Positions 18,676 to 35,375 of a DNA stretch of 64,000 nucleotides are shown in pieces (positions within the stretch are counted from its first letter, which is position 1; the number at the start of each line of letters is the position of its first letter). Made by a program: the position numbers and the translations under genes. Origin of the DNA: Microbacterium sp. zg-Y625 (GTDB lineage: Bacteria; Actinomycetota; Actinomycetes; Actinomycetales; Microbacteriaceae); the NCBI RefSeq assembly GCF_030246925.1, contig NZ_CP126740.1:186001-250000 (forward strand), written 5' to 3'. Below the pieces are notes generated by a model, which searched no databases, was not told where the DNA came from, and saw nothing but the letters and a program-made list of their open reading frames with translations.

Positions 18676-20244
18676 TCAGCGGAGTGCCACGGCGTGGTGG
18701 TCGGCCGCGCTCGGCGGCTCGTCACGCGGCTTGCGTCCATCGGGCCCCGCGACGGCGACGGCGACCGCCTGCACCACCGGGGCCGCCAGGCCGACCAGAC
18801 GCACGTCGCAGACGAGCGCGCCACGCTCACAGGGAACCGTCCAGCGCAGCGCCGCCGCGTCGGATGCCGTGACGATGCGCGCCGCGAATGGCGCGGCGTC
18901 GGGGCGCACCGGTCCGACCTCGGCGAGTGCCTGCTGCAGGCGCTGCGCACGCACGCCGGCCGGGACGTCGGTCAGCACGTTGCGGGCCAGCAGGTCACCG
19001 GCATCCGTCAACGGACGCCCGGCCCGCAGCAGCTCGTCCAGGCGAGTCGCGGCGTGCACGGTCTCGGGCCAGGGCTGCACGACCGCGGACGGCGCGTCGA
19101 CGCGGCCCAGCACGTCACGCAGCACCGCTGCCGCGATGCGGCCGGCGCGGAACGCGTCGGAGTTGCCGAAGACCACCGCCCCGATACCCGTGGGCGGATG
19201 CCAGCGCATGTGGGACGAGAACCCGGGGAGTCCGCCGGCGTGCTGCACGATGCGGCCGAACCGCCGATCGTGCTCGACCACCAGACCGTAGCCATACCCG
19301 GCGCCGTCCAGGTCTCCGTCGCGGTCGGCGAAGACCGCCCCCGCCGTCGGGATCATCGTGCGAGCCGTCTGCATCTCGCGTCGCGACGCGGCACTCAGAA
19401 TCTCTGGCGCCGTGGGGCGGTCGTCGAAGGCGGAGCCCAGGAAGTGCATCCACGCCGCCACATCGTCGACGGTGCTGAACAGGCTGCCGATGCACGCCAG
19501 CGCCCCCGAGCCGACATAGGGCTCCGCCGCGAACGAGGCGCCCTCGTCGAAGGTGCGAAAGCCCGCCGCCAGATCGGCTCCCGGCAGGTACTCGGCTGCC
19601 GACCAGCGCGTCGCCGTCAGCCCCAGCGGGGCCAGCATCCGCTCGCGCACCACCTCTTCGACCGGGCGACCCGTGACCGCCTCGATCGCCCTGCCGACCA
19701 GCGACTGTCCGATGTTCGAGTACTGGTACTCGGTTCCGGGTGTCGCCGACAGGCGCAGACCGCCGGCGATCAGCGTCGACAGGTGCTCCCACGCGTCGCC
19801 CAGGTGGTCGTCGCCCCACGGATTGTCCTCGGGTAGACCGCTGCGGTTCGACAACAGTGCGTCGAGCGTCACGCGGGCAGTCGAGCCCGCGAACCGCGCC
19901 GCTGCCAGCTGCGGCACGAGGGCGGCCGCGGGCGCATGCAGGTCGAGCAGCCCCTCGTCGCGGAGCGACAGCGCGGTGGCGGCGAGGAAGCTCTTGGACA
20001 TCGATGCGATGCGGAACACGGTGTCGCGCCGGGTGGGGGCGCCGTCGCGCCGCGGTTCACCGAACGACGTCAGCGCCAGGACGCGCCCCCGGTGGGTCAC
20101 CGCCGCGATGCCGGCGGGCGCCGTGCGGGTCGCGTCATCGAGCAGGTGCGTGCCGAGCGCGGCCCGGGCGTGGGCCACCGCGTCGCGCGGCGCCGCGGTG
20201 GGTGCGAGCCCGGCGTCACCGCGGGAGTTGCGGCGCTCGGTCAC
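18676..20244 (-). CDS. Serine hydrolase of the beta-lactamase/DD-peptidase family
   Basis: A 522-residue protein. The start is the GTG at 20244, which overlaps the upstream stop by 4 bp; the frame stays open far upstream but only as antisense of the dipeptidase gene. It has the catalytic tetrad SMSK (FRIASMSKSF), YSN (YQYSNIGQSL) and HAGGLPGF, typical of AmpC/DD-carboxypeptidase-like enzymes (Pfam Beta-lactamase). A C-terminal 150-residue extension is present. No signal peptide is visible, which suggests cytoplasmic cleavage of imported peptides, such as D-aminopeptidase or esterase activity. It is the last gene of the minus-strand peptide operon. Confidence 0.9.
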   Translation of the reverse strand: MTERRNSRGDAGLAPTAAPRDAVAHARAALGTHLLDDATRTAPAGIAAVTHRGRVLALTSFGEPRRDGAPTRRDTVFRIASMSKSFLAATALSLRDEGLLDLHAPAAALVPQLAAARFAGSTARVTLDALLSNRSGLPEDNPWGDDHLGDAWEHLSTLIAGGLRLSATPGTEYQYSNIGQSLVGRAIEAVTGRPVEEVVRERMLAPLGLTATRWSAAEYLPGADLAAGFRTFDEGASFAAEPYVGSGALACIGSLFSTVDDVAAWMHFLGSAFDDRPTAPEILSAASRREMQTARTMIPTAGAVFADRDGDLDGAGYGYGLVVEHDRRFGRIVQHAGGLPGFSSHMRWHPPTGIGAVVFGNSDAFRAGRIAAAVLRDVLGRVDAPSAVVQPWPETVHAATRLDELLRAGRPLTDAGDLLARNVLTDVPAGVRAQRLQQALAEVGPVRPDAAPFAARIVTASDAAALRWTVPCERGALVCDVRLVGLAAPVVQAVAVAVAGPDGRKPRDEPPSAADHHAVALR

Positions 20245-22094
20245 GCGCCCACCCCGACGGTCGTCGCACCGGACAGGTCGATTGCGCGGCGCGCGGCGGC
20301 GACGGCCCGCACCTCTTCGGCGAAGGCTGCCGCCAGCCCCCGGCTGGCGCGGGTGTTGTGCCCGTCGACCAGCCGCGCGGCATCCACCAGCTGCGCCACC
20401 GGCACGTCGCCCGGCGCCGGCGTGGTCGGCTCGGTCCAGCCGAGCAGGTCGTCGGCGCAGACCTCGGGGTGGAACTGCACCCCGCGCACGTGCGCACCCA
20501 GCCGGAAGGCCTGGTTCGCGACCGCTGCGCTCGAGGCGAGCAGCTGCGCCCCCGGGGGGAGCGCGGTGATCATGTCCTGGTGGTTCTCGATCATGGGCGC
20601 CGCGGGCGCGAGCGCCCCGATGACCGGGTCGGCATCTCCGGCGGCGGAGAGGAGGATCTCCGTCGCGCCGCGTTCCTTGGGGCCGAACGACGCGCGCACC
20701 TCGCCGCCGGCGACGTGGGCGAGCAGCTGACCGCCGAGGCAGATGCCCAGCGTCGGCAGGTCGGCGGCGATGGCGTCTGCGGCCAGCCGTCGCTCCTGCG
20801 CGAGCCACGGGGCCCGCTCGTCGTCGTCGGGCATGAGCCCGCCGCCGAGCATCACCAGCCCGTCGTAGCCGCCGAGGTCGGCGGGCAGCCCGTGCGCGCC
20901 GAGCACGACGTCGACGGTCACACCGTCCTCCTCGAGCCAGCCACCGAGCCGGCGGAGTCCCGAGGTCTCGCTGTTCTGCACCACGAGCACGCGGGGCGCG
21001 GGTGCCGCCGGCCGGGCCCGCGCGGTGGTGTCCACCGCCGGCCGCAGGGCGATCGGGGTGGGCCGCGCGGCCCGGCCGTCGAGGAAGGCGAGGTGATCGG
21101 CATCCGAGGCTTCCAACACGCGCAGCACGTTGCCGTGCGCGAGCGCTTCGAGGTCCGGGCGCGACCATCCACGGCGGGCCAGCTCGGCCAGCAGCTGCGG
21201 GTACGTCGAGACGTCGTGCAGGCCCGTCGGCATGGCGTCGGTGCCGTCGTAGTCGGCACCGAGTCCCACGGCGTGCACGCCCGCGACATCGCGGATGTGT
21301 TCGACGTGGTCGGCGACGTCGGCGATGCCCACCTCTGGCGGTGTGCCCTGCGCCCCGGCGAGCACCCAGTCCCGCCGCTCCTGCATGAGGAACGACGGGA
21401 CGAACGCGACCATGACGACTCCTCCGCCCGCACCGATGGCGCGCAGCACGTCGTCGGGCACGTTGCGCGGATGGTCGCAGAGGGTGAGCGCCGCCGAGTG
21501 ACTGACCATCACGGGGCGGATGCTGACCTCGAGCGCGTCGCGCATGGTCGAGGGGGCCACGTGGGAGAGGTCGACGAGCATGCCGATGCGGTTGAGTTCG
21601 CGCACGACCTCGCGGCCGAACTCGGTGAGGCCGCCGTGGCGGGGAAGGTCGGTGGCGGAGTCCGCCCAGTCGGTCGTGCGCGACCACGTGAGGGTCAGAT
21701 ACCGGGCGCCCAGGCGCGCGTACTGGCGCAGCACCCCGAGCGAACCGCCCAGTTGCGCGCCGCCCTCGACGCCGATGAGCGAGGCCACCCGCCCTGACGC
21801 CATCGCGGTGCGCACGTCGTCGGCCGTCCGCGCGAACGCCAGCCGGTCGGGGTGGTCGCCCACGAACCGGTGGACGAAATCGATCTGCTCCAGCGTGGCG
21901 GTCACCTGCTCGGCCGCCGAGAGCACCGGGTCGACCCACACCGACCAGAACTGGCCGCCGACCCCGCCGGCAGCGAGCCGTGGCAGGTCGGTGTGCAGGC
22001 CCGCCGTCGTCTCGCGAAGGCCCGTGCTGTCGTAGTCGTGGTGCTCGCGGCATGCCCACGCGAGGTCGTTGTGGCCGTCGATGACCGGGATCAT
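20241..22094 (-). CDS. M19 membrane-type dipeptidase fused to class I glutamine amidotransferase
   Basis: A 617-residue protein from the ATG at 22094, with AAAGGAC upstream. Residues 1-355 form a renal-dipeptidase-like (M19) zinc hydrolase: VIDGHNDLAW, GVEGGAQLGG, VDLSHVAPSTM, MVSHSAALTLCDHPRN and LGADYDGTD. Residues about 380-590 form a GMP-synthase-like amidotransferase: the nucleophile Cys in LGICLGGQLLAH and the His-Glu pair in VQFHPEV. M19 enzymes cleave dipeptides, often with a D-residue at the C-terminal side. The amidotransferase half could release ammonia from Gln or a gamma-glutamyl compound. The fusion is unusual; no stop or frameshift separates the halves. Confidence 0.88.
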   Translation of the reverse strand: MIPVIDGHNDLAWACREHHDYDSTGLRETTAGLHTDLPRLAAGGVGGQFWSVWVDPVLSAAEQVTATLEQIDFVHRFVGDHPDRLAFARTADDVRTAMASGRVASLIGVEGGAQLGGSLGVLRQYARLGARYLTLTWSRTTDWADSATDLPRHGGLTEFGREVVRELNRIGMLVDLSHVAPSTMRDALEVSIRPVMVSHSAALTLCDHPRNVPDDVLRAIGAGGGVVMVAFVPSFLMQERRDWVLAGAQGTPPEVGIADVADHVEHIRDVAGVHAVGLGADYDGTDAMPTGLHDVSTYPQLLAELARRGWSRPDLEALAHGNVLRVLEASDADHLAFLDGRAARPTPIALRPAVDTTARARPAAPAPRVLVVQNSETSGLRRLGGWLEEDGVTVDVVLGAHGLPADLGGYDGLVMLGGGLMPDDDERAPWLAQERRLAADAIAADLPTLGICLGGQLLAHVAGGEVRASFGPKERGATEILLSAAGDADPVIGALAPAAPMIENHQDMITALPPGAQLLASSAAVANQAFRLGAHVRGVQFHPEVCADDLLGWTEPTTPAPGDVPVAQLVDAARLVDGHNTRASRGLAAAFAEEVRAVAAARRAIDLSGATTVGVGA

Positions 22095-22096
22095 GC

Positions 22097-22972
22097 TCAG
22101 GCCGTCCTTTCGTCGAGGTGACGCTGCATCCGGGCGGTCACGTCGCGATCGACCGGGCAGGGGGCGCCGTCGACCGAGCGCACCGCGGCGGCCCCGCGCG
22201 TGCTGGAGCAGAGCCACAGTGCGTCGGCCCGCAGCAGCTCCGGCACCGTGAGCCGGCGTGTCGCCGCCTTTCTGCCGTCGGCGCGCAGTCCTTCGAAGAG
22301 GTCGGCCTGCGTCGTGCCGGGCAGGATGCCGACGTCGACGGGCGGGGTGACGTACACCCCGTCGATGCGCGCGATGACCGTGGAACTGGGGCCTTCGAGG
22401 ACGAACCCGTCGCTGCTGACGAAGATCACGTCATCGGCGCCGCGGCGACGCGCTTCGCGCAGCGCGGCCATGTTGAGGGCGTAGGAGAGGGTCTTGGCGC
22501 CCTGCAGCAGCCAGGGCGACGTCGTGGCCACGTCGTGGCGGTAGCCGCGGTCCAGCAGCACCACGTCCACCTCGGTCAGGGGACCGGCGGGCCGTGCCGG
22601 GGCGAACCCCAGCAGCCAGCCGGTGGGCGTGCCATCACCGGCCTCGTCGCCGCGCGAGAGCACGAACTTGATGGCGGCGCGCCGGCGCAGGGCGCCCACC
22701 TCGACGGCGGCGGCGAGCACCGCGTGGCGCCAGACGTCGCGCCGCGGGGCGGGAAGGTCCAGCAGCCGGGCGGAGCGCTCGAACCGGTCCAGGTGCGGTT
22801 CGAGGGCCTGCGGCACGCCGTCGACGACCATGACCGTCTCGAAGACGCCGTCACCGCGGGTGGCGCTGAGATCGGTGGCGGTCAGCACCGCGGCGCGCGG
22901 GTCGGCGCGCCGCAGACTCCGCGCCGGATCGGGCTCGGCGAGGTCGAGGACGTAGAGCGCGAGGGGATCCAT
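22097..22972 (-). CDS. Class IV aminotransferase (PabC/D-amino-acid transaminase family)
   Basis: A 291-residue PLP enzyme from the ATG at 22972 (AAGGAA upstream). It shows ATRGDGVFETVMVVDG, the PLP lysine in LLQGAKTLSYALN, and DDVIFVSSDGFVLEG. The fold includes aminodeoxychorismate lyase, branched-chain and D-amino-acid aminotransferases. In this operon, next to an epimerase and dipeptidases, D-amino-acid transamination is a reasonable inference. The reaction cannot be told from sequence alone; pabC function is the main alternative. It is separated from its neighbours by 2 and 14 nt. Confidence 0.85.
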   Translation of the reverse strand: MDPLALYVLDLAEPDPARSLRRADPRAAVLTATDLSATRGDGVFETVMVVDGVPQALEPHLDRFERSARLLDLPAPRRDVWRHAVLAAAVEVGALRRRAAIKFVLSRGDEAGDGTPTGWLLGFAPARPAGPLTEVDVVLLDRGYRHDVATTSPWLLQGAKTLSYALNMAALREARRRGADDVIFVSSDGFVLEGPSSTVIARIDGVYVTPPVDVGILPGTTQADLFEGLRADGRKAATRRLTVPELLRADALWLCSSTRGAAAVRSVDGAPCPVDRDVTARMQRHLDERTA

Positions 22973-22986
22973 GGTTCCTTCCGGTC

Positions 22987-24108
22987 TCAGACCGCGGCGG
23001 CGGTGTCGAACCGCTGGGAGGCGTTGCCGGCGATCCAGTCGGTGTCGACCGCGTGACCCAGACCGGGGGTGGTGGGCACGTCGACCCGTCCGGCCCGGGC
23101 CGTCACCGGGGGCACGATGACGTCGCGGGCATAGTACTTGTCCGACCCTGACACATCGGAGGGCAGTGTGAACCCGGGCAGGGACGACAGCGCCACGTTC
23201 GCCGCGCGCCCGACGCCGAACTCGTGCATGCCGCCGCACCACACCGGAATGCCGGCGTCGCGCGCCACGTCGTGCGCCCGTCGGGCGGTGGTGAGCCCGC
23301 CCATGCGGGAGACCTTGATGTTGAGCACGCGTCCGGCGTCGAGGGCGAGCATGGTCTGCAGGTCCGCGATCTCGACGACGGATTCGTCGAGGCACAGCGG
23401 CGTCTGCAGCTTCGCCTGCAGCCGGGCGTGGGCGAGGAAGTCCCGCGGGGCGTAGGGCTGTTCGATCATCGTCAGGCCGTGCCGGTCCAGTTCACGGAAG
23501 ACATCGGCGGATGCCGCGGTGTCGGGGTACGCGCCGTTCGCGTCGACGTGCAGATCGAGCCCGGGGTGCGCGGCGCGCACCGCGCGCACCGGGGCCACGT
23601 CCCAGCCGGGGGCGATCTTGAGCTTCACGCGCGCGTATCCCGCCGCCACGTGGCGCTGCACCTGGGCGAGCAGGGAGTCGACGTCCGCCTCGATGCCGAG
23701 CGACACCCCGGCGGCCACCGTCGTTCGGCTGCCTCCCAACGCGGCGGCGAGCGAGCGGCCGGTGGCCCGCGCGTACAGGTCCCACGCCGCCGCCGAGAAA
23801 CCCGCCTTCGCGAACTCGTGGCCCCGCACGCGGGACCAGCCGCGCTCGAGCTCTTCCGGCGTCTCCCAGTCCGCGCCGACCACGGTGGGGATGAGGTGGC
23901 GGATGGCCACCGCCCACGCGGTGTCGGTCGTCTCGGAGCAGAAGTACGGGTCGGCGGGTGTGGCGATCTCACCCCACCCCACCGCGCCGTCGGCGTCGGT
24001 CGCCTCCACCAGCACGTGGTCGATCGCCGACTTGCGATGGGAACTCGTCTCGAAGCCGTGGACGAGGGGCAGCCCGACGCGGAACAGTCTCAGCCGTTGC
24101 ACCCTCAC
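22987..24108 (-). CDS. Enolase-superfamily enzyme (N-acylamino acid racemase / dipeptide epimerase type)
   Basis: A 373-residue enzyme of the muconate-lactonising subgroup. The base motif K-x-K occurs in VKLKIAPGWD, the metal ligands in HVDANGAY, MIEQPYAP and LDESV, and the second base Lys in LNIKVSRMGGLT. The local sequence is closest to NSAR/OSBS-like proteins, and the subgroup also contains L-Ala-D/L-Glu epimerases. With no menaquinone genes nearby, racemisation of N-acyl amino acids or epimerisation of dipeptides is the better guess. The GTG at 24108 overlaps the SIS-gene stop by 4 bp and has GGAG upstream. Confidence 0.88.
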   Translation of the reverse strand: MRVQRLRLFRVGLPLVHGFETSSHRKSAIDHVLVEATDADGAVGWGEIATPADPYFCSETTDTAWAVAIRHLIPTVVGADWETPEELERGWSRVRGHEFAKAGFSAAAWDLYARATGRSLAAALGGSRTTVAAGVSLGIEADVDSLLAQVQRHVAAGYARVKLKIAPGWDVAPVRAVRAAHPGLDLHVDANGAYPDTAASADVFRELDRHGLTMIEQPYAPRDFLAHARLQAKLQTPLCLDESVVEIADLQTMLALDAGRVLNIKVSRMGGLTTARRAHDVARDAGIPVWCGGMHEFGVGRAANVALSSLPGFTLPSDVSGSDKYYARDVIVPPVTARAGRVDVPTTPGLGHAVDTDWIAGNASQRFDTAAAV

Positions 24109-24821
24109 TCGTCGCGCTCCGTGTCGTCGCGGTGCGGGCGGTGTCCGTCCCGGGGGTCTGGGTGGTACAGCCCCAGGTCGGCGGCGAACCGGTCGCGTCC
24201 GGCAAGCCGACGGCGAGCCCCTTTCGCGCTGGCGGTGGTGAGGGTGCTGAGCAAGTGGCAGACCGCAGCGACGGCGGTGGGGGAGTCGGCGTACGACGCG
24301 GAATGCGTGTGCACGCGGATGACGGCGGATGCCGATTCGGTCAAGGGCGCCTTCTCGCTGTCGGTGATGAGCACCAGCTGTCCGCCGGCCTCGTGGAAGA
24401 GCTCGCCGAACCGCACGGTCTCTTCGCGGTAGCGGCGCATGGTGAAGACGACCAGCACGTCGGATGCGCGCACGTCGGTGAGCACCGTGAGCGGCGACAG
24501 CGAGCGTCCGTCGACGAGGAACACGTTCGAGAGCGTCGCCGAGAGGTCGGCGTTGAGCAGCTCCGCGTAGGCCGATGTCTTGCCACGGCCGCTGATGTAC
24601 CGCCGCCGGGCACCGAGGATGAGCGCCGCCGCGCGCGAAGCCTCTCCGCTGCGGCTGAGCTGTTCGAAGGTGCGCGCCAACGACCGCGTCTCGGCCTCGA
24701 TCACACGTGCCTGCAAGCCCTCGGCGGAGATGTTGGTGCGGAAGCGCTCGCCGTAGCGTTCTCGGGGCGAGACCAGCGACCGGTCCAGTGCCCCCTCGTC
24801 GTCCTGTGGCCCCTCGGTCAT
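24105..24821 (-). CDS. SIS-domain protein, MurR/RpiR-like but lacking the DNA-binding domain
   Basis: A 238-residue protein. The ATG at 24821 overlaps the acetyltransferase stop by 4 bp and follows AAGGGGTGGG. ISGRGKTSAYAELL and DVLVVFTMRRYREET followed by VLITDSEKAPL are the phosphosugar-binding SIS motifs in the arrangement seen in RpiR/MurR regulators. The roughly 75-residue N-terminal helix-turn-helix of that family is absent: only about 60 residues of linker precede the SIS fold. It may be a ligand-binding or isomerase-like protein rather than a repressor. SIS proteins of this type often sense amino sugars such as MurNAc-6-phosphate. Confidence 0.82.
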   Translation of the reverse strand: MTEGPQDDEGALDRSLVSPRERYGERFRTNISAEGLQARVIEAETRSLARTFEQLSRSGEASRAAALILGARRRYISGRGKTSAYAELLNADLSATLSNVFLVDGRSLSPLTVLTDVRASDVLVVFTMRRYREETVRFGELFHEAGGQLVLITDSEKAPLTESASAVIRVHTHSASYADSPTAVAAVCHLLSTLTTASAKGARRRLAGRDRFAADLGLYHPDPRDGHRPHRDDTERDE

Positions 24822-25609: not shown

Positions 25610-25722
25610 AATACGTATCCGATGTTGGAAGGCGGAGGGGCTGCTCGGACCGAAATTATCCAACCTTCCTTGGCAGGGCAAGACTGGATATGTTTCGTAA
25701 AAGGAAAATCTCAAGGGGTCCT
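25610..25722. promoter_or_regulatory. Divergent control region of the peptide-utilisation block
   Basis: This 113-bp gap separates the two operons and is visibly A/T-richer than its surroundings. GTTGGAAGG (about 25624) and CCAACCTTCC (about 25661) form a partial inverted pair that could be a shared regulator site. No clear -35/-10 pair can be assigned by eye. AAGGGG precedes the M20 start. Confidence 0.4.
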
Positions 25723-26856: not shown

Positions 26857-27147
26857 CGGATCAGCGCTCAGTCATCGATTCGTCCTGCGGCGCCGGCGAG
26901 ACACATTCTGCTGAACCCAGCGACGGCGAGCTGGGCAGTCTGCGTCCTAATGCCGATCCGCGCCGAGGATTGCCCCCTTTTCCGCCGATATTGCGCGCGC
27001 GTCCGGCATGTAACAGTCGTGTGAAATCCCACGTCGGCCGCCGGTATCGGGAACAAATACGTTGACCCCGTCCTCCACGATGGGGTTCTATGTAGTCCAT
27101 CGTCGGCCCCGCGCGCCGAGGCCAGGTTCTCGATGAAAGGAACCCTC
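26857..27147. other. Intergenic region before the peptide-binding protein gene
   Basis: No gene is recognised in these 291 bp. TTGACC at 27062-27067, with the A/T-rich TTCTATGTAG about 18-21 bp downstream, is a possible promoter for the transporter genes, so these may be transcribed independently of the M20 gene. The region is less G+C-rich than its neighbours. Confidence 0.4.
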
Positions 27148-29001
27148 ATGCCCACTCCTCCTCGGACCCGCGCCCGGCAGGCGCTGGGGGTGGTCGCCGC
27201 AGCCGCGCTCATCGCGCTTCCGGTCGGCGCCGCCCACGCCGACTCGACCTCCCCGGCGCGCCTGGACGCCACGGCATCGACGCCGTCGCCCGAAGCCGAC
27301 GCCACGACCTTCCGCATCGCGACGTCCGGCTTCGTCGACACGTTCAACCCGTTCGTCTCCATCTATCTGACGCCGACCAACATCAACCGCTACGTCTACG
27401 AGTACCTCGTGCAGAACAGCGCCGAGGACGGTTCGCCGACCAAGGGCCTGGCCGACAGCTGGGAGGTCGAGGACGGCGGCACGACCTGGGTCTACACGCT
27501 GCAGGACGACCTGGTGTGGTCCGACGACGAGCCGATCACCTCCGAAGACGTCGTCTACACCTATGAGCAGATGATGACGGTGCCCGAGCTGGCGGTCGCC
27601 AACGGCAACCTGGTGTCGAACTTCGAGAGCGTCGAGGCCCCCGACGACAAGACGGTGGTCATCAACCTCAAGACCCCGCAGGCGCCCAACCCCGGCACCG
27701 AGGTGCCGATCGTGCCCGAGCACATCTGGTCGGAGATCGAGGACCCCGCCACGTTCGCCAACGATGCGGATGTCGTCGGTTCGGGTCCGTACCTGCTGGA
27801 GAGCTACAGCGCGAACCAGTCGATCACGCTGCGCGCCAACCCGAACTTCTGGCAGGGCGCCCCCAAGATCGACCGCATCCAGTACGTCTACTACACCAAC
27901 TCCGACGCGCAGGTGCAGGCGCTGCGTGCCGGCGAGGTCGACTTCGTCTCGGGTCTCACCCCCACGCAGCTGCAGGCGCTCGAGGGCGTCGACGGCATCA
28001 CCACCCACTCCGGTGAAGGGCGCCGCTACCACTCCATCAGCATCAACCACGGCACGGTCACCCGCGACGGGCAGCCCTACGGAACCGGCAGCGAAGCACT
28101 GAAGGACGTCAACGTCCGCCAGGCGCTGCGCCTGGGCACCGACACCGAGACGCTGCTCGAGCGCGTGATGGAGGGGCGCGCCGAACCGGCGACCAGCTTC
28201 ATCCCGTCGTCGTTCCCGAAGTGGGCCCTCCCCGCCGACGACGAGGTCATCATGTCGTACGACCCCGAGGCGGCCATGGCAAAGCTCGAGGAAGCGGGCT
28301 GGACCGAGGGGGCGGACGGGATCCGCGAGAAGGACGGCACCCCGCTGCAGCTGCGCCTGCTGGTGGATGCCGACGACCTCACCGAGCAGTCGATCGCCGA
28401 GTACTTCGTGCCGTGGATGGAGGAGATCGGCGTGCGCATCGCGGTGGAGTCCACCGACGGCGACACGATCAGCGCGCGTTCGGTGTCGGGCGACTATGAC
28501 CTCTACTTCAGCGGCTGGAGCATCAACCCCGACCCCGACTACCAGCTCGGGATCAACCTGTGCTCGACCCTTCCGACCGGAACCGACGGCTCCGGCGGCA
28601 CCACCCAGGACGGGTACTGCAACCCGGAGTTCGACGAGCTCTACGCCCAGCAGCGCTCCGAGCTCGACGAGGACGCACGTCGTGAGATCGTCCGCGAGAT
28701 GCTGGCGATGAACTACACCGACACGGCCCAGATCGCCACGTGGTACGCCCACTCGCTCGAGGCCTACCGTTCGGACCGCTTCGACGGCTTCACCCTGCAG
28801 CCGAAGGAGGGCGGCATCATCGCCAGCCAGGCCGGTTACTGGGGCTTCCTCACCGTCGAGCCGGTGGAGGGCGCGCAGCAGGCGGAGGAGGGCGGTGTGC
28901 CGACCGGCCTGATCGTCACGGGTGTGATCGTGGCGCTCGTGATCGCCGGTGCGGTGATCTTCGTCCTGGTGCGCCGGCGCAAGATGGCCGACGTCGAATG
29001 A
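27148..29001 (+). CDS. Peptide ABC transporter substrate-binding protein (SBP family 5), C-terminally anchored
   Basis: A 617-residue protein from the ATG at 27148, preceded by AAAGGA. The signal peptide (GVVAAAALIALPVGAAHA) has no lipobox Cys. The SBP_bac_5 fold follows: YEYLVQNSAEDGSPTKGLAD, WTYTLQ-like strand WVYTLQDDLVWSD, then GSGPYLLESY and LRANPNFWQG. The C-terminus has a membrane helix (GLIVTGVIVALVIAGAVIFV) followed by RRRK, so the protein is held by a C-terminal anchor instead of a lipid. This family binds di- and oligopeptides. Genes for the permeases and ATPases follow in order. Confidence 0.93.
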   Translation: MPTPPRTRARQALGVVAAAALIALPVGAAHADSTSPARLDATASTPSPEADATTFRIATSGFVDTFNPFVSIYLTPTNINRYVYEYLVQNSAEDGSPTKGLADSWEVEDGGTTWVYTLQDDLVWSDDEPITSEDVVYTYEQMMTVPELAVANGNLVSNFESVEAPDDKTVVINLKTPQAPNPGTEVPIVPEHIWSEIEDPATFANDADVVGSGPYLLESYSANQSITLRANPNFWQGAPKIDRIQYVYYTNSDAQVQALRAGEVDFVSGLTPTQLQALEGVDGITTHSGEGRRYHSISINHGTVTRDGQPYGTGSEALKDVNVRQALRLGTDTETLLERVMEGRAEPATSFIPSSFPKWALPADDEVIMSYDPEAAMAKLEEAGWTEGADGIREKDGTPLQLRLLVDADDLTEQSIAEYFVPWMEEIGVRIAVESTDGDTISARSVSGDYDLYFSGWSINPDPDYQLGINLCSTLPTGTDGSGGTTQDGYCNPEFDELYAQQRSELDEDARREIVREMLAMNYTDTAQIATWYAHSLEAYRSDRFDGFTLQPKEGGIIASQAGYWGFLTVEPVEGAQQAEEGGVPTGLIVTGVIVALVIAGAVIFVLVRRRKMADVE

Positions 29002-29074
29002 CCAGCGGGCCGTCGCGGCGATCCGCCGACCGCCGCGGCGGCCCCTGTCCGCCCGTCCTCGAGGGAAGAGCCCC

Positions 29075-30118
29075 ATGACCAGCACGGTGCCGCCCACCGA
29101 GGAGATCCTGCTGGCTGAGACCGGCGCGGGCGCAGCGCCCCGCCGCCTCTCGGCGCTGTCCTACTTCGCCACCAAGGTCGGCGGCGCGGCAGTGAGCATG
29201 GTGATGGTGATCCTCCTCGGATTCTTCGCCTTCAAGGTGCTGCCGGGCGACCCGGTCGCCACCCTCGCCCGCGAACGGCAGCTCAGCAGCGAGCAGATCG
29301 CCCAGCTGCGGCTGCAGATGGGGCTCGACAAGCCGCTGTGGCAGCAGTTCGTCGATTACCTCGTGAACGTCTTCACGCTGAACTTCGGCGAGAGCTACGT
29401 GTACAAGACGTCGGTCTCGTCCCTCATCGGCCAGTACTTCTGGAACACGATCCTGCTCACCGGCACCTCGGCGGTCCTCGCCATCGCGCTCGGGCTCTGG
29501 CTCGGACAGAAGGCGGGCTGGCGGCCGGGGTCGCTGTTCGACAGGATCACCTCGGGCATGGCGCTCGTGCTGTGGTCGGTGCCGACGTTCTGGCTGGCGC
29601 TGATCCTCCTCATGGTCTTCGGTGGCACGCTGCACTGGTTCCCGACCGGCGGCATGACGTCGCCCGACCCGCCCGCCGACCTGTTCGCCCGCATCCTCGA
29701 CGTCGCCGCCCACATGGTGCTGCCGGTGCTGACGATGGTCGCCGTCGTCTACGCGCAGTACGTCATGGTGATGCGCGCCTCGCTCATGGAGGAGAAGAGC
29801 GCGGACTACCTCACCACCGCCCGGGCGAAGGGCCTGCGCGATGACCTCGTGCGCCGTCGCCACGCGGTGCCGAACGCACTGCTGCCGGCGGTCACGCTGA
29901 TGTTCCTGCACATCGGCGGCCTCATCGCCGGTGCGGTGACGGTGGAGACCGTCTTCTCGTGGCCGGGTCTGGGCAAGCTCACCTTCGAAGCGATCAGCGG
30001 CCCCGACCTGCCCCTGCTGCAGGGCACCTTCGTGGTCTTCTCCGCGGTCATCATCGTGATGAACCTCATCGCCGACTTCATCTATCGACGGCTCGACCCG
30101 AGAGTGAGGCGCGGATGA
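29075..30118 (+). CDS. Peptide ABC transporter permease (DppB-like)
   Basis: A 347-residue membrane protein with six TM helices, the DppB/OppB opening LPGDPVATLARERQLSSEQ followed by LRLQMGLDKPL, and the EAA loop YLTTARAKGLRDDLVRRRHA that contacts the ATPase. Helix 5-6 carries GAVTVETVFSWPGLGKL. GGGAAGAG-type sequence precedes the ATG. Its last 4 bp overlap the second permease gene, so the two subunits are translated together. Confidence 0.95.
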   Translation: MTSTVPPTEEILLAETGAGAAPRRLSALSYFATKVGGAAVSMVMVILLGFFAFKVLPGDPVATLARERQLSSEQIAQLRLQMGLDKPLWQQFVDYLVNVFTLNFGESYVYKTSVSSLIGQYFWNTILLTGTSAVLAIALGLWLGQKAGWRPGSLFDRITSGMALVLWSVPTFWLALILLMVFGGTLHWFPTGGMTSPDPPADLFARILDVAAHMVLPVLTMVAVVYAQYVMVMRASLMEEKSADYLTTARAKGLRDDLVRRRHAVPNALLPAVTLMFLHIGGLIAGAVTVETVFSWPGLGKLTFEAISGPDLPLLQGTFVVFSAVIIVMNLIADFIYRRLDPRVRRG

Positions 30119-31026
30119 GCGCGCACGTGGCATCCCGTTCGCCGCGCAGCATGGCGTGGGCGCGGCGCCGTGCGGCGTTCGGCCAGTTCTGCCGGGAGTT
30201 CTCGCGTCAGCGGGCCGGGATGGTGGGGCTGGTGTTCCTCGTGGTCATCATCGCGCTCGCCATGCTCGCGCCGGTGCTGGCGCCGGCCTGGATGCTGGAT
30301 GTGACGAAGGTCATGGACTCGCCCCGGTTCGCTCCGCCTTCGATGGAGCACCCGCTGGGCACCGACCATCAGGGTCGCGAGCTGTGGGTGCGCATGCTGT
30401 GGGGTGCGCAGGTGTCGCTGCTGGTCGGCTTCGCCGCGACCGCCATGTCGATGATCATCGGGACGGTCGTCGGCATTGCGGCCGGGCACTTCACCGGGCT
30501 CTCCGGCGCGCTGCTCATGCGGCTGATCGACTTCTTCCTCGTGCTGCCGTCGCTGATCCTCGCGATCGTGCTGTCGACGGTGCTCTCACGGGGGGTGTGG
30601 ACGATCGTCATCGCCATCGGGCTGACCTCGTGGGCCGGCACTGCCCGCGTGGTGCGCGCGCAGACCCTCTCGGTGGAATCGCGCGACTACGTGGAGCGAT
30701 CACGCGTGCTCGGCGCGGGCCACTGGCACATCATCGTCAAGCACCTGCTCCCCGCCGTGCTGCCGCTCGTGCTGGCCAACACCACCCTCACGGTGGGCTC
30801 GGCGATCATCGCGGAGTCGACGCTGGCCTTCCTCGGATTGGGCGACACGACGCTGCAGTCCTGGGGGGCCGTGCTGCGCAACTCGATGGACGTCTCGGCG
30901 GCCACCAGCGGGTACTGGTGGTACGTCCTCGTGCCCGGCGTCGCGATCGTGATGGTCGTGCTCGCCTTCACCCTGGTGGGCCGCGCCGTGGAGACGATCG
31001 TCAACCCGACACTGCGGAGCCGCTGA
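30115..31026 (+). CDS. Peptide ABC transporter permease (DppC-like)
   Basis: A 303-residue membrane protein. The DppC signature GTDHQGRELWVRMLWGAQVS follows the first TM helix and a periplasm-side segment. The EAA loop is YVERSRVLGAGHWHIIVKHL, and AESTLAFLGLGDTTLQSWG is the conserved final cytoplasmic-membrane motif. It is the heterodimer partner of the preceding permease, overlaps it by 4 bp, and ends 1 nt before the ATPase gene. Confidence 0.95.
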   Translation: MSAHVASRSPRSMAWARRRAAFGQFCREFSRQRAGMVGLVFLVVIIALAMLAPVLAPAWMLDVTKVMDSPRFAPPSMEHPLGTDHQGRELWVRMLWGAQVSLLVGFAATAMSMIIGTVVGIAAGHFTGLSGALLMRLIDFFLVLPSLILAIVLSTVLSRGVWTIVIAIGLTSWAGTARVVRAQTLSVESRDYVERSRVLGAGHWHIIVKHLLPAVLPLVLANTTLTVGSAIIAESTLAFLGLGDTTLQSWGAVLRNSMDVSAATSGYWWYVLVPGVAIVMVVLAFTLVGRAVETIVNPTLRSR

Positions 31027-31027
31027 C

Positions 31028-32686
31028 ATGCCCGACCTCACCTTCGAAGACGTCTCGATCACCTACTCCACCTCCGGCCGGAGCGGCGGCCGCGGCGAGA
31101 TCGCCGCGGTGCGGGGCGTCAACCTCATCCTCCCCGCCGGCGGCACCCTCGGCATCGCCGGGGAGTCGGGCTCCGGCAAGTCCACTCTCGCGATGAGTGT
31201 GCTGCGCCTGCTGCCGAGCAATGCGCGGCTCACCGGGCGGGTGGTGGTGGGCGACACCGACATCACCGAACTCAGCTTCGGCAAGCTGCGGGCGCTCCGC
31301 TGGGCGGATGCCTCGATCGTCTTCCAGGGCGCCATGCACTCGCTGAACCCGGTGCGCACCGTCGGTGCGCAGATCCTCGAAGCGCTCGAACTGCACGTCA
31401 CCGACGCATGGAAGACCGAGGCCGCCCGCAAGGGCAGGGTCGCGGATCTGCTGCGGGCCGTGGACCTTCCGCCGCAGAAGGCGGAGTCGTACCCCCACGA
31501 GCTGTCGGGCGGGCAGAAGCAGCGCATCATGATCGCGATGGCGCTGGCCTGCGAGCCCGAGATCATCATCGCCGATGAGCCCACCACGGCGCTGGACGTC
31601 ATCGTGCAGCAGCAGATCCTCGAGATGATCAGCCGCCTCGTGGTCGAGCGCGGCATCTCGCTCCTCATGATCAGCCACGACCTGTCGGTGCTGGCCACCG
31701 CCTGCCAGCGCATCGCGATCATGCGGGGCGGCGAGGTCGTCGAGGTGGGAGAGGCCCGGACGGTGTGCACGCAGGGGCAGCATCCGTACACGCGACAGCT
31801 GGCCGACGCGTTCCCCACCATCGGCGACCCGGCGTCGCGGCGCAACCCGGTCACCCGGCGGGAACGCGCCGCCGTGGCATCCGACGTGAAGCCGAGCGCC
31901 ATGACCGACGAGGTGCTGCTGGAGGCGAAGGGCCTGAGCGTCACCTTCCACAGCCGCTCGCGGTCCGCCCGCGCGGTGAAGGACGTCGACCTCGTGGTGC
32001 GCCGTGGCGAGATCCTCGCCCTCGTCGGCCAGTCGGGATCGGGGAAGACCACGCTCGCGCGCACCCTCGTCGGCCTGCAGCAGGCCGACCCCGGATCGGT
32101 CGTCCGCTTCCGCGGCCAGGAGCTGCCCCGCAAGGGCAAGGGGCTGCAGGCCTTCCGCAAGGAGGTGCAGATGGTGCTGCAGGACCCCACCGCCGCGCTC
32201 AACCCGAAGCTCAGCGTGTACGAGTCCGTCGCCGAGGGACTGCGGGTGCAGCGCTACCGCGGCGACGAGACCCAGCGCGTGGCGCAGAGCCTCACCGACG
32301 CCGAGCTGACCCCGCCCGAGGACTTCTTCACCGCCATTCCGCAGGAGCTCTCGGGCGGCCAGCGGCAGCGCACCGTGATCGCGGGCGCGCTCGCGGTCGG
32401 GCCGCAGCTGCTGGTCGCCGACGAGCCGGTCGCGTCGCTGGACGCCTCCGCCCGCGGCGAGATCCTCTCCCTGCTGCTGTCGCTGCGCGATCGCCTGGGG
32501 CTCAGCGCGCTCGTGATCACCCACGACCTCGGGCTGGCGTGGAACATCGCCGACACCGTCGCGGTGATGTACCAGGGCGAGATCGTCGAGTACGGCCCCA
32601 CCGAGCAGGTGCTGCTGGACCCGCAGCACGACTACACGCGTCAGCTGCTGGCCGCGGCGCCCACCATCGACCGGACCATCGCGTGA
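31028..32686 (+). CDS. Fused peptide ABC transporter ATPase (DppD-DppF type)
   Basis: A 552-residue protein with two complete nucleotide-binding domains. NBD1 has GESGSGKST, LSGGQKQR and IIIADEPT. NBD2 has GQSGSGKTT, LSGGQRQR and LLVADEPV. Between them lies the oligopeptide-transporter C-terminal extension with HPYTRQLADAFP; a similar DYTRQLLAAAP ends the protein. It energises import of peptides through the two permeases. The fusion of the D and F subunits is common in actinobacteria. The LD-carboxypeptidase gene overlaps its end by 4 bp. Confidence 0.95.
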   Translation: MPDLTFEDVSITYSTSGRSGGRGEIAAVRGVNLILPAGGTLGIAGESGSGKSTLAMSVLRLLPSNARLTGRVVVGDTDITELSFGKLRALRWADASIVFQGAMHSLNPVRTVGAQILEALELHVTDAWKTEAARKGRVADLLRAVDLPPQKAESYPHELSGGQKQRIMIAMALACEPEIIIADEPTTALDVIVQQQILEMISRLVVERGISLLMISHDLSVLATACQRIAIMRGGEVVEVGEARTVCTQGQHPYTRQLADAFPTIGDPASRRNPVTRRERAAVASDVKPSAMTDEVLLEAKGLSVTFHSRSRSARAVKDVDLVVRRGEILALVGQSGSGKTTLARTLVGLQQADPGSVVRFRGQELPRKGKGLQAFRKEVQMVLQDPTAALNPKLSVYESVAEGLRVQRYRGDETQRVAQSLTDAELTPPEDFFTAIPQELSGGQRQRTVIAGALAVGPQLLVADEPVASLDASARGEILSLLLSLRDRLGLSALVITHDLGLAWNIADTVAVMYQGEIVEYGPTEQVLLDPQHDYTRQLLAAAPTIDRTIA

Positions 32687-33657
32687 GTACCGGTGCGCGT
32701 GCGCTCGAGGTCGACCGCGCGGCGTACCTCGCCTCGGCGCCGCTGAAACCGGGGGACCGCGTGCGGTTCGTCTCACCCTCGGGGCCCGGTACCGCGGAGA
32801 GCCTGGAACGGGCGATCGGCTACTACCGCGACTGGGGACTGGACGTGGTGGCGGGCGAGCACGTGCTCGTCCCGCACCCGAGGGCGAGGTACCTCGCCGG
32901 CCCCGATGACGCCCGTCGGCAGGACCTCGTCGACGCCTGGTGCGACCCCGACACCGACGCCGTCGTGTGCCTGCGGGGCGGCTACGGCGCCATGCGGCTG
33001 CTGGACGGCATCGACTGGGCCCACATGCGGCGCTCGGCGCTGCGGCGCGATGGGCGCCCGAAGCTGCTCACCGGTTCGTCGGACGTCACGGCCCTGCACG
33101 AGGCGTTCCGCGTGCACCTGGACGTCCCCACCCTCTTCTGCCCCATGCCGGGCAACGACGTGTTCCGCGATGCTCCGTCGGTGCGCGACGACGTGCGCCG
33201 GTGGCTGTTCGAGCCGTGGGGCGGGCGCAGCATCGTGGGTCCGCGCACCGAGGTGCTCGCTGCGGGCGCCGCGACGGGCAGGTTCACCGGCGGCAACCTC
33301 TCCCTGCTGGCCATGGCGCTCGGGTCGCCCGAGGCGGCGGAGGTGCCCGACGGCATCCTGTTCCTCGAGGACATCGACGAGGACGTCTACCGCCTCGACG
33401 GGTTCCTGCTGCAGCTGCTGCGGGTGGGACGCCTGCGCGGCGCATCGGGGATCGTGCTGGGGTCGTGGCACAAGTGCGCCGAGCCGGATGCCGTCCGCGC
33501 GCTCATGCAGGAGTATCTCGGCGGCCTGGGCGTGCCGGTGCTCTGGGAGCAGGGCTTCGGGCACGATCCCGAGGCCCTCAGCGTGCCGCTCAACGTCGAC
33601 GGCGTGCTGGATGCCGGCGAGTCCGGTGCCCGGCTGACGGTGGGCGGGGCGACATGA
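32683..33657 (+). CDS. S66-family LD-carboxypeptidase
   Basis: A 324-residue cytoplasmic serine peptidase. RFVSPSGPGTAESLERAI starts the fold, the nucleophile Ser lies in LLTGSSDVTALHEA, and the Glu and His of the triad are in FLEDIDEDVYRLDG and GFGHDPEALS. In Gram-negative bacteria the family (LdcA) removes the terminal D-Ala from murein tetrapeptides. Other members (MccF) hydrolyse acylated nucleotide antibiotics. Being translationally coupled to a peptide importer points to imported murein peptides. The GTG at 32683 overlaps the ATPase stop. Confidence 0.9.
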   Translation: MSTGARALEVDRAAYLASAPLKPGDRVRFVSPSGPGTAESLERAIGYYRDWGLDVVAGEHVLVPHPRARYLAGPDDARRQDLVDAWCDPDTDAVVCLRGGYGAMRLLDGIDWAHMRRSALRRDGRPKLLTGSSDVTALHEAFRVHLDVPTLFCPMPGNDVFRDAPSVRDDVRRWLFEPWGGRSIVGPRTEVLAAGAATGRFTGGNLSLLAMALGSPEAAEVPDGILFLEDIDEDVYRLDGFLLQLLRVGRLRGASGIVLGSWHKCAEPDAVRALMQEYLGGLGVPVLWEQGFGHDPEALSVPLNVDGVLDAGESGARLTVGGAT

Positions 33658-34493
33658 GCGTGATCTCGCTGCCGCGGCTGGACCCGCGGGCGCGATGGTC
33701 GGTGCGGGTGCTCGCCGACGATGGCTCGGTGCTGGCCGAGCACGCGCCGGACGAGATGTGCGAGACGGCCAGCGTCGGAAAGGTCTTCCTTCTCATCGAG
33801 GTCGCCCGACGCATCGAGGCGGGCGACGTCGATCCGGATCGTCGTATCGACATCCCCGCCGAGCACGTCGTGGCCGACTCCGGCCTGCTCTACCGCATGC
33901 GTGACCCGCGCCTGAGCGTCCACGACGCCGCGCTGCTGGTGGGCGCGGTCAGCGACAACCTCGCCACCAACGCGCTGCTGGCGCTGTGCGGGCTCGACGC
34001 GGTGCGGGCCGTCGCACCGGCGCTCGGATACGGCAGCACGTCGCTGCACGACTACATCCGCAACGAGCGCACCCCCGACCTGCCGTGGACGCCGTCGTAC
34101 GGCACCGGCGCCGAGCTGGCGGACCTGATGCACCGCCTCGCGGCGGGGAAGGTGATCTCGCCCGCGGTCAGCGATCAGGTGATGACCTGGCTGGCCGCCG
34201 ACACCGACACCTCGATGGTGGCCGACGCGCTGCTGGTGGATCCCCTCGCGCACGCCGAGGCGGAGTATCAGGGGATGCTGCTGCGCCACAAGACCGGATC
34301 GACGTCGTTCGCGCGCATCGACGTCGGGCACCTGCGCGGCCCGGCGGCCGGGGTCTCGTACGCGGTCGCGGCGAACTGGAAGGACTCCCCGCAGGACCTG
34401 CGCGCCCCGGTGCTCGACGCCATGCGGACCATCGGCGAGGGCCTGCGGGCGCACGTCACGGGTCGCGCCCGCGACGACGAGCCGGCGCAGTGA
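33654..34493 (+). CDS. Serine hydrolase with class A beta-lactamase motifs (copy 1)
   Basis: A 279-residue protein with the three motifs of penicillin-recognising enzymes: SVGK (TASVGKVFLL), SDN (VGAVSDNLATN) and KTG (LRHKTGSTSF). It has no signal peptide, so a role against beta-lactams outside the cell is unlikely, and an intracellular peptidase on D-amino-acid peptides fits the operon better. The general-base Glu of true class A enzymes could not be identified. The ATG overlaps the LD-carboxypeptidase stop by 4 bp. It is a clear paralogue of the next gene. Confidence 0.87.
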   Translation: MSVISLPRLDPRARWSVRVLADDGSVLAEHAPDEMCETASVGKVFLLIEVARRIEAGDVDPDRRIDIPAEHVVADSGLLYRMRDPRLSVHDAALLVGAVSDNLATNALLALCGLDAVRAVAPALGYGSTSLHDYIRNERTPDLPWTPSYGTGAELADLMHRLAAGKVISPAVSDQVMTWLAADTDTSMVADALLVDPLAHAEAEYQGMLLRHKTGSTSFARIDVGHLRGPAAGVSYAVAANWKDSPQDLRAPVLDAMRTIGEGLRAHVTGRARDDEPAQ

Positions 34494-34556
34494 GAGCCGT
34501 CGTGAACGGGTCGCGCATCTGGCCGTGCACCGCGACCGCACAGAAAGGGCGGTGGT

Positions 34557-35375
34557 ATGAGCATCGGGTTCGCTGAGGCGGAAGAGGAGATCCCGGGACT
34601 GCGCATCAGCGCGCTCGCCGTGGACCTCGAGGACGACACCGTGGTGTTCGAGCATCGGCCAGAGCTCGTGCTCAACACCGCCAGCGTGGGGAAGGTCTTC
34701 CTGCTGCACCGGCTGCTCACAGAGGTCGACGAGGGCCGGCGCACCCTCGAGGAGACCGTGACCCGGCGTCCCGTCGAGCGCATCGAGGAGTCCGGCCTCT
34801 GGCACCTGCTGCAGGCGGACACGCTCTCGCTGCACGATGTGGCCGTGCTCATCGGTGCGGTGAGCGACAACGCCGCGACCAACACCCTCTGCCGGGTGAT
34901 AGGGCTGCCGGTCGTGCAGGAGCACACACGGGCCCTCGGATACCGCGACTCGGCTCTCGATGACATCGTGCGCTGGCCGCTGCCGCCGGGTGTGCCGCGC
35001 ACGCTCTCGCACGGAACGGCCGCCGAGCTCGTACGGTTCGTGCGGCGGACGGCGCTCGCCGAGGACCTCACCCGGCCGTCGGCCGACCTGCTGCAGCGCT
35101 GGCTCGGGGCAGGGATGGATCTGTCGATGGTGGCGTCGGTGTTCAACCTCGACCCGCTGGCGCACTATGCCTTCGATCGCGACGTCTGGCTGTGGAACAA
35201 GACCGGGACCCTCCTGTCGGTGCGCGCGGACGTGGGTCTCGTGATGTCGCCCACGCGGCGGATCGCCTATGCGGTGCTCATCAACTGGCCGCGCGGCACC
35301 GACTCGCGCGACCGGGCGCTGGCGCTCATGCGCGAGGCCGGCGAGGCGCTCAGGGGTCGGCTGGCGGCTCACTGA
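34557..35375 (+). CDS. Serine hydrolase with class A beta-lactamase motifs (copy 2)
   Basis: A 272-residue paralogue of the preceding protein. It shares NTASVGKVFLLHRLL, LIGAVSDNAATNTLC and WLWNKTGTLLSVRADVG at the same spacing. GGTGGT precedes its ATG after a 63-nt gap. Like copy 1 it lacks an export signal. The tandem pair could form a heterodimer or have split substrate ranges. It is the last gene before lysS. Confidence 0.87.
   Translation: MSIGFAEAEEEIPGLRISALAVDLEDDTVVFEHRPELVLNTASVGKVFLLHRLLTEVDEGRRTLEETVTRRPVERIEESGLWHLLQADTLSLHDVAVLIGAVSDNAATNTLCRVIGLPVVQEHTRALGYRDSALDDIVRWPLPPGVPRTLSHGTAAELVRFVRRTALAEDLTRPSADLLQRWLGAGMDLSMVASVFNLDPLAHYAFDRDVWLWNKTGTLLSVRADVGLVMSPTRRIAYAVLINWPRGTDSRDRALALMREAGEALRGRLAAH

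Follow-up and report, generated by a model that had tools for sequence, protein, structure and literature searches.

Based on a comparative analysis of a 64,000-nucleotide stretch of the Microbacterium sp. zg-Y625 genome (hereafter the window; positions 186001-250000 of a single-contig genome of 3.26 Mb), we propose that fourteen genes at 18676-35375, flanked by a DUF2520 gene on one side and lysS on the other, form a co-regulated locus for living on peptides with D-residues. The locus would import such peptides, hydrolyse them and convert the D-amino acids into L-amino or keto acids, a reading to which we give a probability of about 0.7. Gene content, catalytic positions, arrangement, co-occurrence and a shared palindrome are observed; each reaction and each substrate is deduced from them. 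An initial annotation of the window had placed these genes in two divergent groups and read them as a unit for the uptake and breakdown of D-residue peptides. All fourteen lie where it had put them and belong to the families it had named, and the shared palindrome and the co-occurrence described below speak for such a unit. The connection between the GNAT, racemase and M20 genes was absent from that annotation and is added here.

Six genes run leftward from a divergent gap of 113 bp, in the order GNAT, SIS-domain protein, enolase-superfamily racemase, class IV aminotransferase, M19-amidotransferase fusion and class C-like serine hydrolase; eight run rightward, in the order M20 hydrolase, family 5 solute-binding protein, two permeases, double ABC ATPase, S66 peptidase and two class A-like serine hydrolases. 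Neighbourhoods were counted in the best 80 of 311 relatives from a scan of named genomes, each viewed over at most 21 kb and some at contig ends, so that absence means 'not in view'. These loci come from Microbacterium, Leifsonia, Leucobacter, Pseudoclavibacter, Gordonia, Acidipropionibacterium, Kribbella, Nesterenkonia, Cryobacterium, Pseudonocardia, Cellulomonas and other genera. The GNAT gene lies upstream of the N-succinylamino-acid racemase (NSAR) gene on the same strand in 78 of the 80, a divergent M20 gene is present in 66 and the SIS gene in 69, and GNAT, divergent M20 and SIS stand together in 62. In many actinomycetes this four-gene core is found alone, without the surrounding shell of Dpp importer, S66, M19 plus amidotransferase, serine hydrolases and either an aminotransferase or an enzyme resembling D-amino-acid dehydrogenase. 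The four core proteins diverge in step with one another, their pairwise divergences correlating with r of 0.82 to 0.90 over 45 loci, which shared descent alone could explain. The GNAT protein is modelled with a GNAT fold (pLDDT 94.5). The M20 protein has its closest chain in the Protein Data Bank (PDB) in carboxypeptidase G2 (1cg2, 100 bits) and keeps its six assumed metal or catalytic positions in 75/75 aligned sequences.

What kind of enzyme is the racemase? The initial annotation had left it between NSAR and dipeptide epimerase, and the first of these names stands. The protein scores 275 bits against TIGR01928 (cut-off 200.65) and about 57 bits against two L-Ala-D/L-Glu epimerase models with cut-offs of 343 and 500; the PDB chains nearest to it belong to N-acylamino acid racemases (280-290 bits), and the epimerase 1jpm reaches 92 bits. 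By model scores and closest solved relatives it is classed as an enzyme of the NSAR/o-succinylbenzoate synthase (OSBS) family, and a dipeptide epimerase is rejected. That it is the cell's OSBS is rejected as well, in view of a separate MenC-type gene elsewhere in the genome (at 2569832; 470 bits, above cut-off). A second, canonical NSAR lies at 3024330 and shares 46% identity with the block enzyme; the GNAT near it is 37% identical to the block GNAT over 151 columns, and of nine loci with a canonical NSAR, five have a related GNAT close by. The block-type NSARs carry K162, K164, D189, N191, E216, D241, K265 and R268 (the assumed Lys pair and metal ligands) in 94/94 sequences, at least 7 of which are one genome under two loci, as also happens among the rows of the other catalytic-motif alignments. 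They are further marked by S23, H24 and H295 in 94/94 and F297 in 93/94, at places where canonical NSARs have F and G (9/9) and L and T (8/9). These positions, the 20s loop among them, lie in what we take to be loops lining the active site, and the subgroup therefore probably differs from canonical NSARs in the substrates it accepts. In locus L117, what looks like a fusion of SIS and NSAR is an out-of-frame read.

We infer that GNAT, NSAR and M20 together match a known irreversible route from D- to L-amino acids, in which the D-amino acid is acylated, the acyl form racemised and the L form deacylated. In Geobacillus kaustophilus a trio of GNAT, NSAR and L-specific deacylase, associated with Sakai et al. 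2006, reportedly carries out this irreversible conversion. The likeness is that a GNAT, an NSAR and a putative deacylase are encoded together; here, the NSAR belongs to a separate subgroup, the M20 is carboxypeptidase-G2-like, and an SIS protein, an operator-like site and a shell for peptide import and hydrolysis are added. The Dgc pathway, which proceeds through acetyl intermediates, differs in its enolase (97 bits for the block enzyme against the DgcA model, short of the cut-off of 400) and in having DgcN in the place taken here by the GNAT. According to the review PMC8762209, D-Phe, D-Tyr or D-Trp is converted to its N-acetyl and N-succinyl forms by an enzyme related to GNATs, a finding credited to Sakai 2006, and the reference list of the review names the irreversible D-to-L pathway of Sakai et al. 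2006. PMC12363236 and PMC10845958 describe DgcN-DgcA as a pathway that racemises acidic D-amino acids irreversibly.

A shared palindrome, ATACG-N3-CGTAT, probably ties the core to the shell. In 63 GNAT/M20 divergent regions we count 107 sites at up to 2 mismatches, compared with 5.5 expected from shuffles; 61 of the 63 regions have a site and 41 have at least two. Distances within pairs are 64-66, 75-77 or 86-87 bp in 38 of 51 cases, in steps of about one DNA turn. The motif was derived from the very regions in which it was first counted, and these come from close relatives, so neither the 63 regions nor the 51 distances are independent. The importer promoters offer a more independent test: of 29 importer loci, the window included, 27 carry a site in the 320 bp upstream of the first importer gene (2.9 expected), and 17 of the 29 do so at 1 mismatch (0.15 expected). 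None was found before the first permease (0/29), the second permease (0/29) or the ATPase (0/27), and at up to 2 mismatches the numbers before M19 (2/32), the class C hydrolase (1/31), NSAR (4/80) and SIS (2/65) are about as expected. An exact site precedes the separately placed aminotransferase gene in two loci (L110, L115), and in two others (L084, L090) GNAT and an S66 gene diverging from it have a site between them. Eight other palindromes yielded 0 to 18 sites, and nine 20 kb loci around canonical NSARs had no site at 1 mismatch. Because the palindrome precedes the importer genes as well as GNAT and M20, a single regulon probably takes in both core and shell. No gene for the cognate regulator was found.

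Co-occurrence across genomes points in the same direction. Block-type NSARs (a set defined at 57% identity or more, a limit chosen by eye) are present in 16 of 299 genomes of the family. S66 is found in 10 of these 16 and in 3 of the 283 others (Fisher P=1.6e-12), SIS in 15/16 and 8/283, the amidotransferase in 10/16 and 4/283, and the close form of class A-like hydrolase a in 9/16 and 2/283. The 23 SIS genomes exclude a 59-bit match in G051. The SIS gene of G003, which has a stop codon, is absent from the SIS sequence set, and the NSAR of G168 from the NSAR set. Hydrolase a was cut at 48% identity; generic relatives occur in 217/299 genomes, so only its close form is specific to the block. 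Canonical NSARs show no such co-occurrence in the 299 genomes (S66 P=0.49, SIS P=0.61). In two genomes, G191 and G266, the 20 kb viewed contains SIS, the dehydrogenase-like enzyme, M19, the amidotransferase, the importer and the two class A-like hydrolases but lacks GNAT, NSAR and M20, and a genome-wide search at E 1e-45 gave no NSAR in either. This pattern is consistent with the joint loss of one pathway, the dehydrogenase standing in. In G057 core and shell are on separate contigs. Comparison of neighbourhoods, which the initial annotation had proposed, has a mixed outcome: the core is often alone, the shell of G057 lies elsewhere and DUF2520 adjoins the block in only 2 of the 80 loci, both Microbacterium (L058, L068). 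Palindrome and co-occurrence nonetheless favour a single pathway.

The enzymes of the shell have features in keeping with peptide breakdown in the cytosol. No N-terminal hydrophobic segment was detected by hydropathy window in the serine hydrolases, S66, M19 or M20, in agreement with the export-signal-free hydrolases of the initial annotation; permeases aside, the solute-binding protein alone begins with a strongly hydrophobic, signal-like segment. The S66 enzyme, the only PF02016 match in the genome, keeps its Ser-Glu-His set in 24/24 aligned sequences. It matches the chains of PA5198, which we take to be LdcA, and of murein tetrapeptide carboxypeptidase with 92-95 bits, and MccF or MccF-like chains with at most 60 bits; by this ranking it is classed as LdcA type, and MccF is rejected. 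The class C-like hydrolase has S-x-x-K, Y-x-N and H-x-G in 32/32 aligned sequences and scores 88 bits against the AmpH model, below its cut-off of 266. Hydrolases a and b are paralogues with 38% identity, and S-x-x-K, SDN and KTG are present in 14/14 and 13/13 aligned sequences, respectively, the single class A-like gene of G081 and of G285 being counted in both rows. In one relative (L129:15216-17285) the reading frame of hydrolase b extends without a break into a domain of the PBP4/S13 D-Ala-D-Ala carboxypeptidase type (TIGR00666, above cut-off), and hydrolase b frames are similarly long in G091, G232 and L130. The fused dipeptidase noted in the initial annotation is borne out, its partner now corrected to a class I glutamine-amidotransferase domain. 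M19 (closest PDB chain 3id7, 348 bits) and amidotransferase are both present in 33 of the 33 named loci with either near the NSAR, fused in 12 and separate in 21.

The aminotransferase and the dehydrogenase-like enzyme replace each other. The former lies beside the NSAR on the same strand in 29 of the 80 loci, the latter in 5, both in none; 7 loci with M19 have neither. The aminotransferase is of fold type IV, keeps its pyridoxal phosphate lysine, K160, in 37/37 aligned sequences, and has CpuTA1 (5k3w, 249 bits) as closest PDB chain. It passes the lyase model NF005888 with 283 bits, and the D-transaminase models, at 69 and 54 bits, are not passed. CpuTA1 of Curtobacterium converts D-amino acids, D-alanine among them (PMC5131300), and Rv0812, which shares the fold, has lyase as well as D-transaminase activity (PMC8105722). 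The block enzyme differs from these two in its physiological setting, lying in a D-peptide locus and being replaceable by a dehydrogenase-like enzyme.

A further partner is the SIS protein, 238 aa long, which consists of the SIS domain alone, with no N-terminal helix-turn-helix. Its predicted model (pLDDT 86.7) has the isomerase-domain fold of RpiR/MurR (3sho, 7en5), with the RpiR domain 3sho as best match and MurR also high. Of 626 homologues, 120 are listed, and all 120 have PF01380 alone. All 37 sequences compared share R129, R130 and Y131, presumably at the place where SIS proteins usually carry the phosphosugar-binding S-x-S-G-x-T. Public databases often label homologues without helix-turn-helix 'MurR/RpiR family transcriptional regulator'. 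In genus g47 (L131-L133) an SIS protein with 44% identity occurs without a block-type NSAR; close to it, and on its strand, is a gene whose product matches the class C-like hydrolase at 36%.

How might these parts work together? In our model the Dpp-type importer would take up short peptides, which the cytosolic S66, class C- and class A-like hydrolases and M19 with its amidotransferase domain would degrade to free amino acids; the amidotransferase domain could possibly cut gamma-D-glutamyl or isoglutamine amide bonds. The D-amino acids would then have two ways out. Along the first, irreversible one, the GNAT would acylate the D-amino acid, the NSAR racemise the N-acyl form and the M20 deacylate the L form. 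Along the second, a D-transaminase in this genome, or the D-amino-acid-dehydrogenase-like enzyme in relatives, would produce the keto acid. The SIS protein may act as sensor or helper, and a separate regulator would bind the ATACG-N3-CGTAT sites. Our best guess for the peptide source is murein stem peptides, suggested by the LdcA-like S66 and the PBP4-type domain, and for the main N-acylation substrate of the core D-Glu, suggested by the carboxypeptidase-G2-like M20, the gamma-glutamyltransferase and Amidohydro_3 genes near the core and the two extra histidines of the racemase. Gamma-glutamyltransferase is encoded near the core in 6/80 loci, in Kribbella beyond the M20 gene; Amidohydro_3 (PRK09061-like, under its cut-off) in 12/80, one distant on the opposite strand, and its gene follows that of NSAR in Kribbella, Pseudonocardia, Haloactinopolyspora and other genera (L091, L101 and L123 among the loci).

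Several observations weigh against this model. The importer is in view in only 28 of the 80 loci, and since the core so often stands without it, peptide uptake is not part of the core's basic function. The divergent M20 is missing in 14/80 and SIS in 11/80, some of these being contig ends or cases of M20 placed otherwise; five of the 33 loci with M19 have no importer in the expected place (L096 is inverted, and the others include short contigs). M19 relatives exist in 61/299 family genomes at E 1e-60, mostly non-block, and in G049 and G112 the amidotransferase lies away from M19. As to the palindrome, the window's own three sites (25611, 25688, 26849) each have 2 mismatches, and a genome-wide regulon in this genome was rejected when a 1-mismatch scan gave 10 places compared with 6 in the reversed control. 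Enzyme identities also have weak points. The GNAT matches no specific NCBIfam model and its fold matches are generic; the M20 falls under the cut-off of all 25 models listed of 43, with no desuccinylase model passed; the flavin adenine dinucleotide enzyme of the relatives has D-amino acid dehydrogenase as its best model with 177 bits, short of the cut-off of 383; and the aminodeoxychorismate-lyase model is also passed by a paralogue of the aminotransferase in the same genome. The case for murein as the source is one of family resemblance.

Other explanations have to be considered. The one that fares best concerns the substrates, which might be environmental N-acyl-D-amino acids or non-murein D-peptides such as antibiotic peptides, poly-gamma-glutamate or aged proteins. 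A core without shell, as in Kribbella (there with gamma-glutamyltransferase and Amidohydro_3), Pseudonocardia and others, would fit such substrates, as would the C45 acyltransferase/hydrolase of the Pseudoclavibacter-type block; the LdcA-type S66 and the PBP4-type domain of the shell suggest murein stem peptides instead, and we regard a non-murein diet as possible but doubtful.

The initial annotation had likened the block to the Bacillus subtilis dppB-E/ykfA-D locus, and a full analogue would recycle murein peptides the Bacillus way, with the enolase epimerising L-Ala-D-Glu. The resemblance is real in one part: as described in PMC2954226, B. subtilis has a Dpp importer and an S66-type LD-carboxypeptidase beside an enolase-superfamily enzyme. 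It ends at the racemase, whose 275 bits as NSAR/OSBS compared with about 57 as epimerase, and whose solved relatives, leave no YkfB-type epimerase in the block. YkfC and DppA are missing too, as the initial annotation had noted: no NlpC/P60 or DppA Pfam match was found among the fourteen genes, to which the search was confined. The constant partners of the enolase are GNAT and M20, and D-residues would be handled here as free amino acids and not as a dipeptide. We consider an analogue of the Bacillus system improbable and prefer a D-to-L pathway centred on the NSAR.

The enolase and the aminotransferase could also serve cofactor synthesis, as OSBS for menaquinone and aminodeoxychorismate lyase for folate, their position being incidental. 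Both names come from models passed above cut-off (TIGR01928 and NF005888). This is very unlikely, however: the genome has its dedicated MenC-type gene and another lyase-type aminotransferase, 49% identical to that of the block, block-type NSARs occur in only 16 of the 299 genomes, and in L110 and L115 the aminotransferase, though set apart, has its own exact operator. Least likely of all is a resistance or self-immunity island, with S66 as MccF-like immunity and the beta-lactamase-like enzymes directed at beta-lactams: MccF does belong to the S66 family and the hydrolases have class A/C beta-lactamase folds, but the S66 is nearest to LdcA-type chains, the hydrolases have no visible export signal and lie far under beta-lactamase cut-offs, the presumed class A Glu166 place of hydrolase a is Glu in only 8/14 sequences (an alignment-dependent count), and the catabolic core is conserved alongside them.

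What are the consequences if the model of D-peptide catabolism holds? Actinomycetes would then have a defined set of enzymes, acting in a testable order, with which to use the D-amino acids of peptides, peptidoglycan peptides for example, and the model would set the racemase subgroup apart from the NSARs studied so far. A family often named as transcriptional regulators shows no DNA-binding domain in the 120 homologues listed of 626, and the operator motif offers a handle for catching the real regulator. We speculate, tentatively, that the block represents an unnamed and widespread actinomycete route that replaces dipeptide epimerisation: stem peptides would be taken down to free D-Glu and D-Ala and passed to a racemase subgroup of N-acyl-glutamate type (His24/His295/Phe297) with its own GNAT, a carboxypeptidase-G2-like deacylase and an SIS protein of RpiR fold that lacks a DNA-binding domain, all under one operator; this last protein would be a new sensor of, or enzyme for, N-acyl-amino acids. 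Neither the enzyme types nor the D-to-L route are new; their combination and the shared control site may be, and searches of open-licence PMC papers yielded no description of the joined system, the racemase subgroup, the SIS partner or the operator.

Table 1. Genes and operator-like sites of the block, in window coordinates
Feature	Position	Strand	Basis
Class C-like (S12/AmpH/D-peptidase type) serine hydrolase	18676..20244	-	PF00144 171 bits; no visible export signal
M19 dipeptidase fused to class I glutamine-amidotransferase domain	20241..22094	-	PF01244 372 bits and PF00117 55 bits
Class IV aminotransferase, probable D-amino-acid transaminase, aminodeoxychorismate-lyase-like	22097..22972	-	NF005888 283 bits, above cut-off
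N-succinylamino-acid racemase (NSAR/OSBS family), block-type subgroup	22987..24108	-	TIGR01928 275 bits
SIS-domain protein, RpiR/MurR fold, without DNA-binding domain	24105..24821	-	PF01380; 238 aa
GNAT N-acyltransferase, putatively acting on D-amino acids	24818..25609	-	PF00583
Operator-like palindrome, GNAT promoter	25611..25623	.	2 mismatches to ATACG-N3-CGTAT
Operator-like palindrome, M20 promoter	25688..25700	.	2 mismatches; 77 bp from GNAT-promoter site
M20 hydrolase, carboxypeptidase-G2-like, putative N-acyl-L-amino-acid deacylase	25723..26856	+	PF01546
Operator-like palindrome upstream of importer operon	26849..26861	.	2 mismatches
Family 5 solute-binding protein	27148..29001	+	PF00496 301 bits
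DppB/OppB-type permease	29075..30118	+	PF00528, PF19300
DppC/OppC-type permease	30115..31026	+	PF00528, PF12911
Double ABC ATPase, DppD-DppF in one chain	31028..32686	+	two ABC_tran stretches, oligo_HPY
S66 LD-carboxypeptidase, LdcA-like	32683..33657	+	PF02016/PF17676
Class A-like serine hydrolase a, no visible export signal	33654..34493	+	PF13354 118 bits
Class A-like serine hydrolase b, no visible export signal	34557..35375	+	PF13354 102 bits

Within the block, six adjacent gene pairs overlap by 4 bp. Contrary to the earlier view of each half as one unit, the rightward half is probably two transcription units, since 291 bp separate M20 from the solute-binding protein gene and an operator-like site of its own lies there. 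A search for consensus promoters and terminators gave a result no better than chance. The G+C content of the block (71.6%, compared with 70.5% for the window) shows no marked anomaly. The distance between the DUF2520 and lysS matches is 16.8 kb here; in all of the 11 other genomes checked, six of them congeneric, it ranges from 87 bp to 2.4 kb, and none of the six congeneric genomes checked at this site (0/6) has the block-type racemase. As relatives keep the two genes close and the congeneric six are without that racemase, the block is best read as an insertion between them. In G245 and G043 a related block is found elsewhere, and DUF2520 and lysS are still close together. Pseudoclavibacter-type blocks (L015-L018) include an Lrp/AsnC regulator, the C45 acyltransferase/hydrolase and a C39-like peptidase, and Microbacterium sp. 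Se63.02b (L080) may have nearby second copies of M19, amidotransferase, aminotransferase and S66. Finally, the solute-binding protein ends, by hydropathy, in a hydrophobic, membrane-anchor-like segment, and so do its counterparts in 11 relatives.

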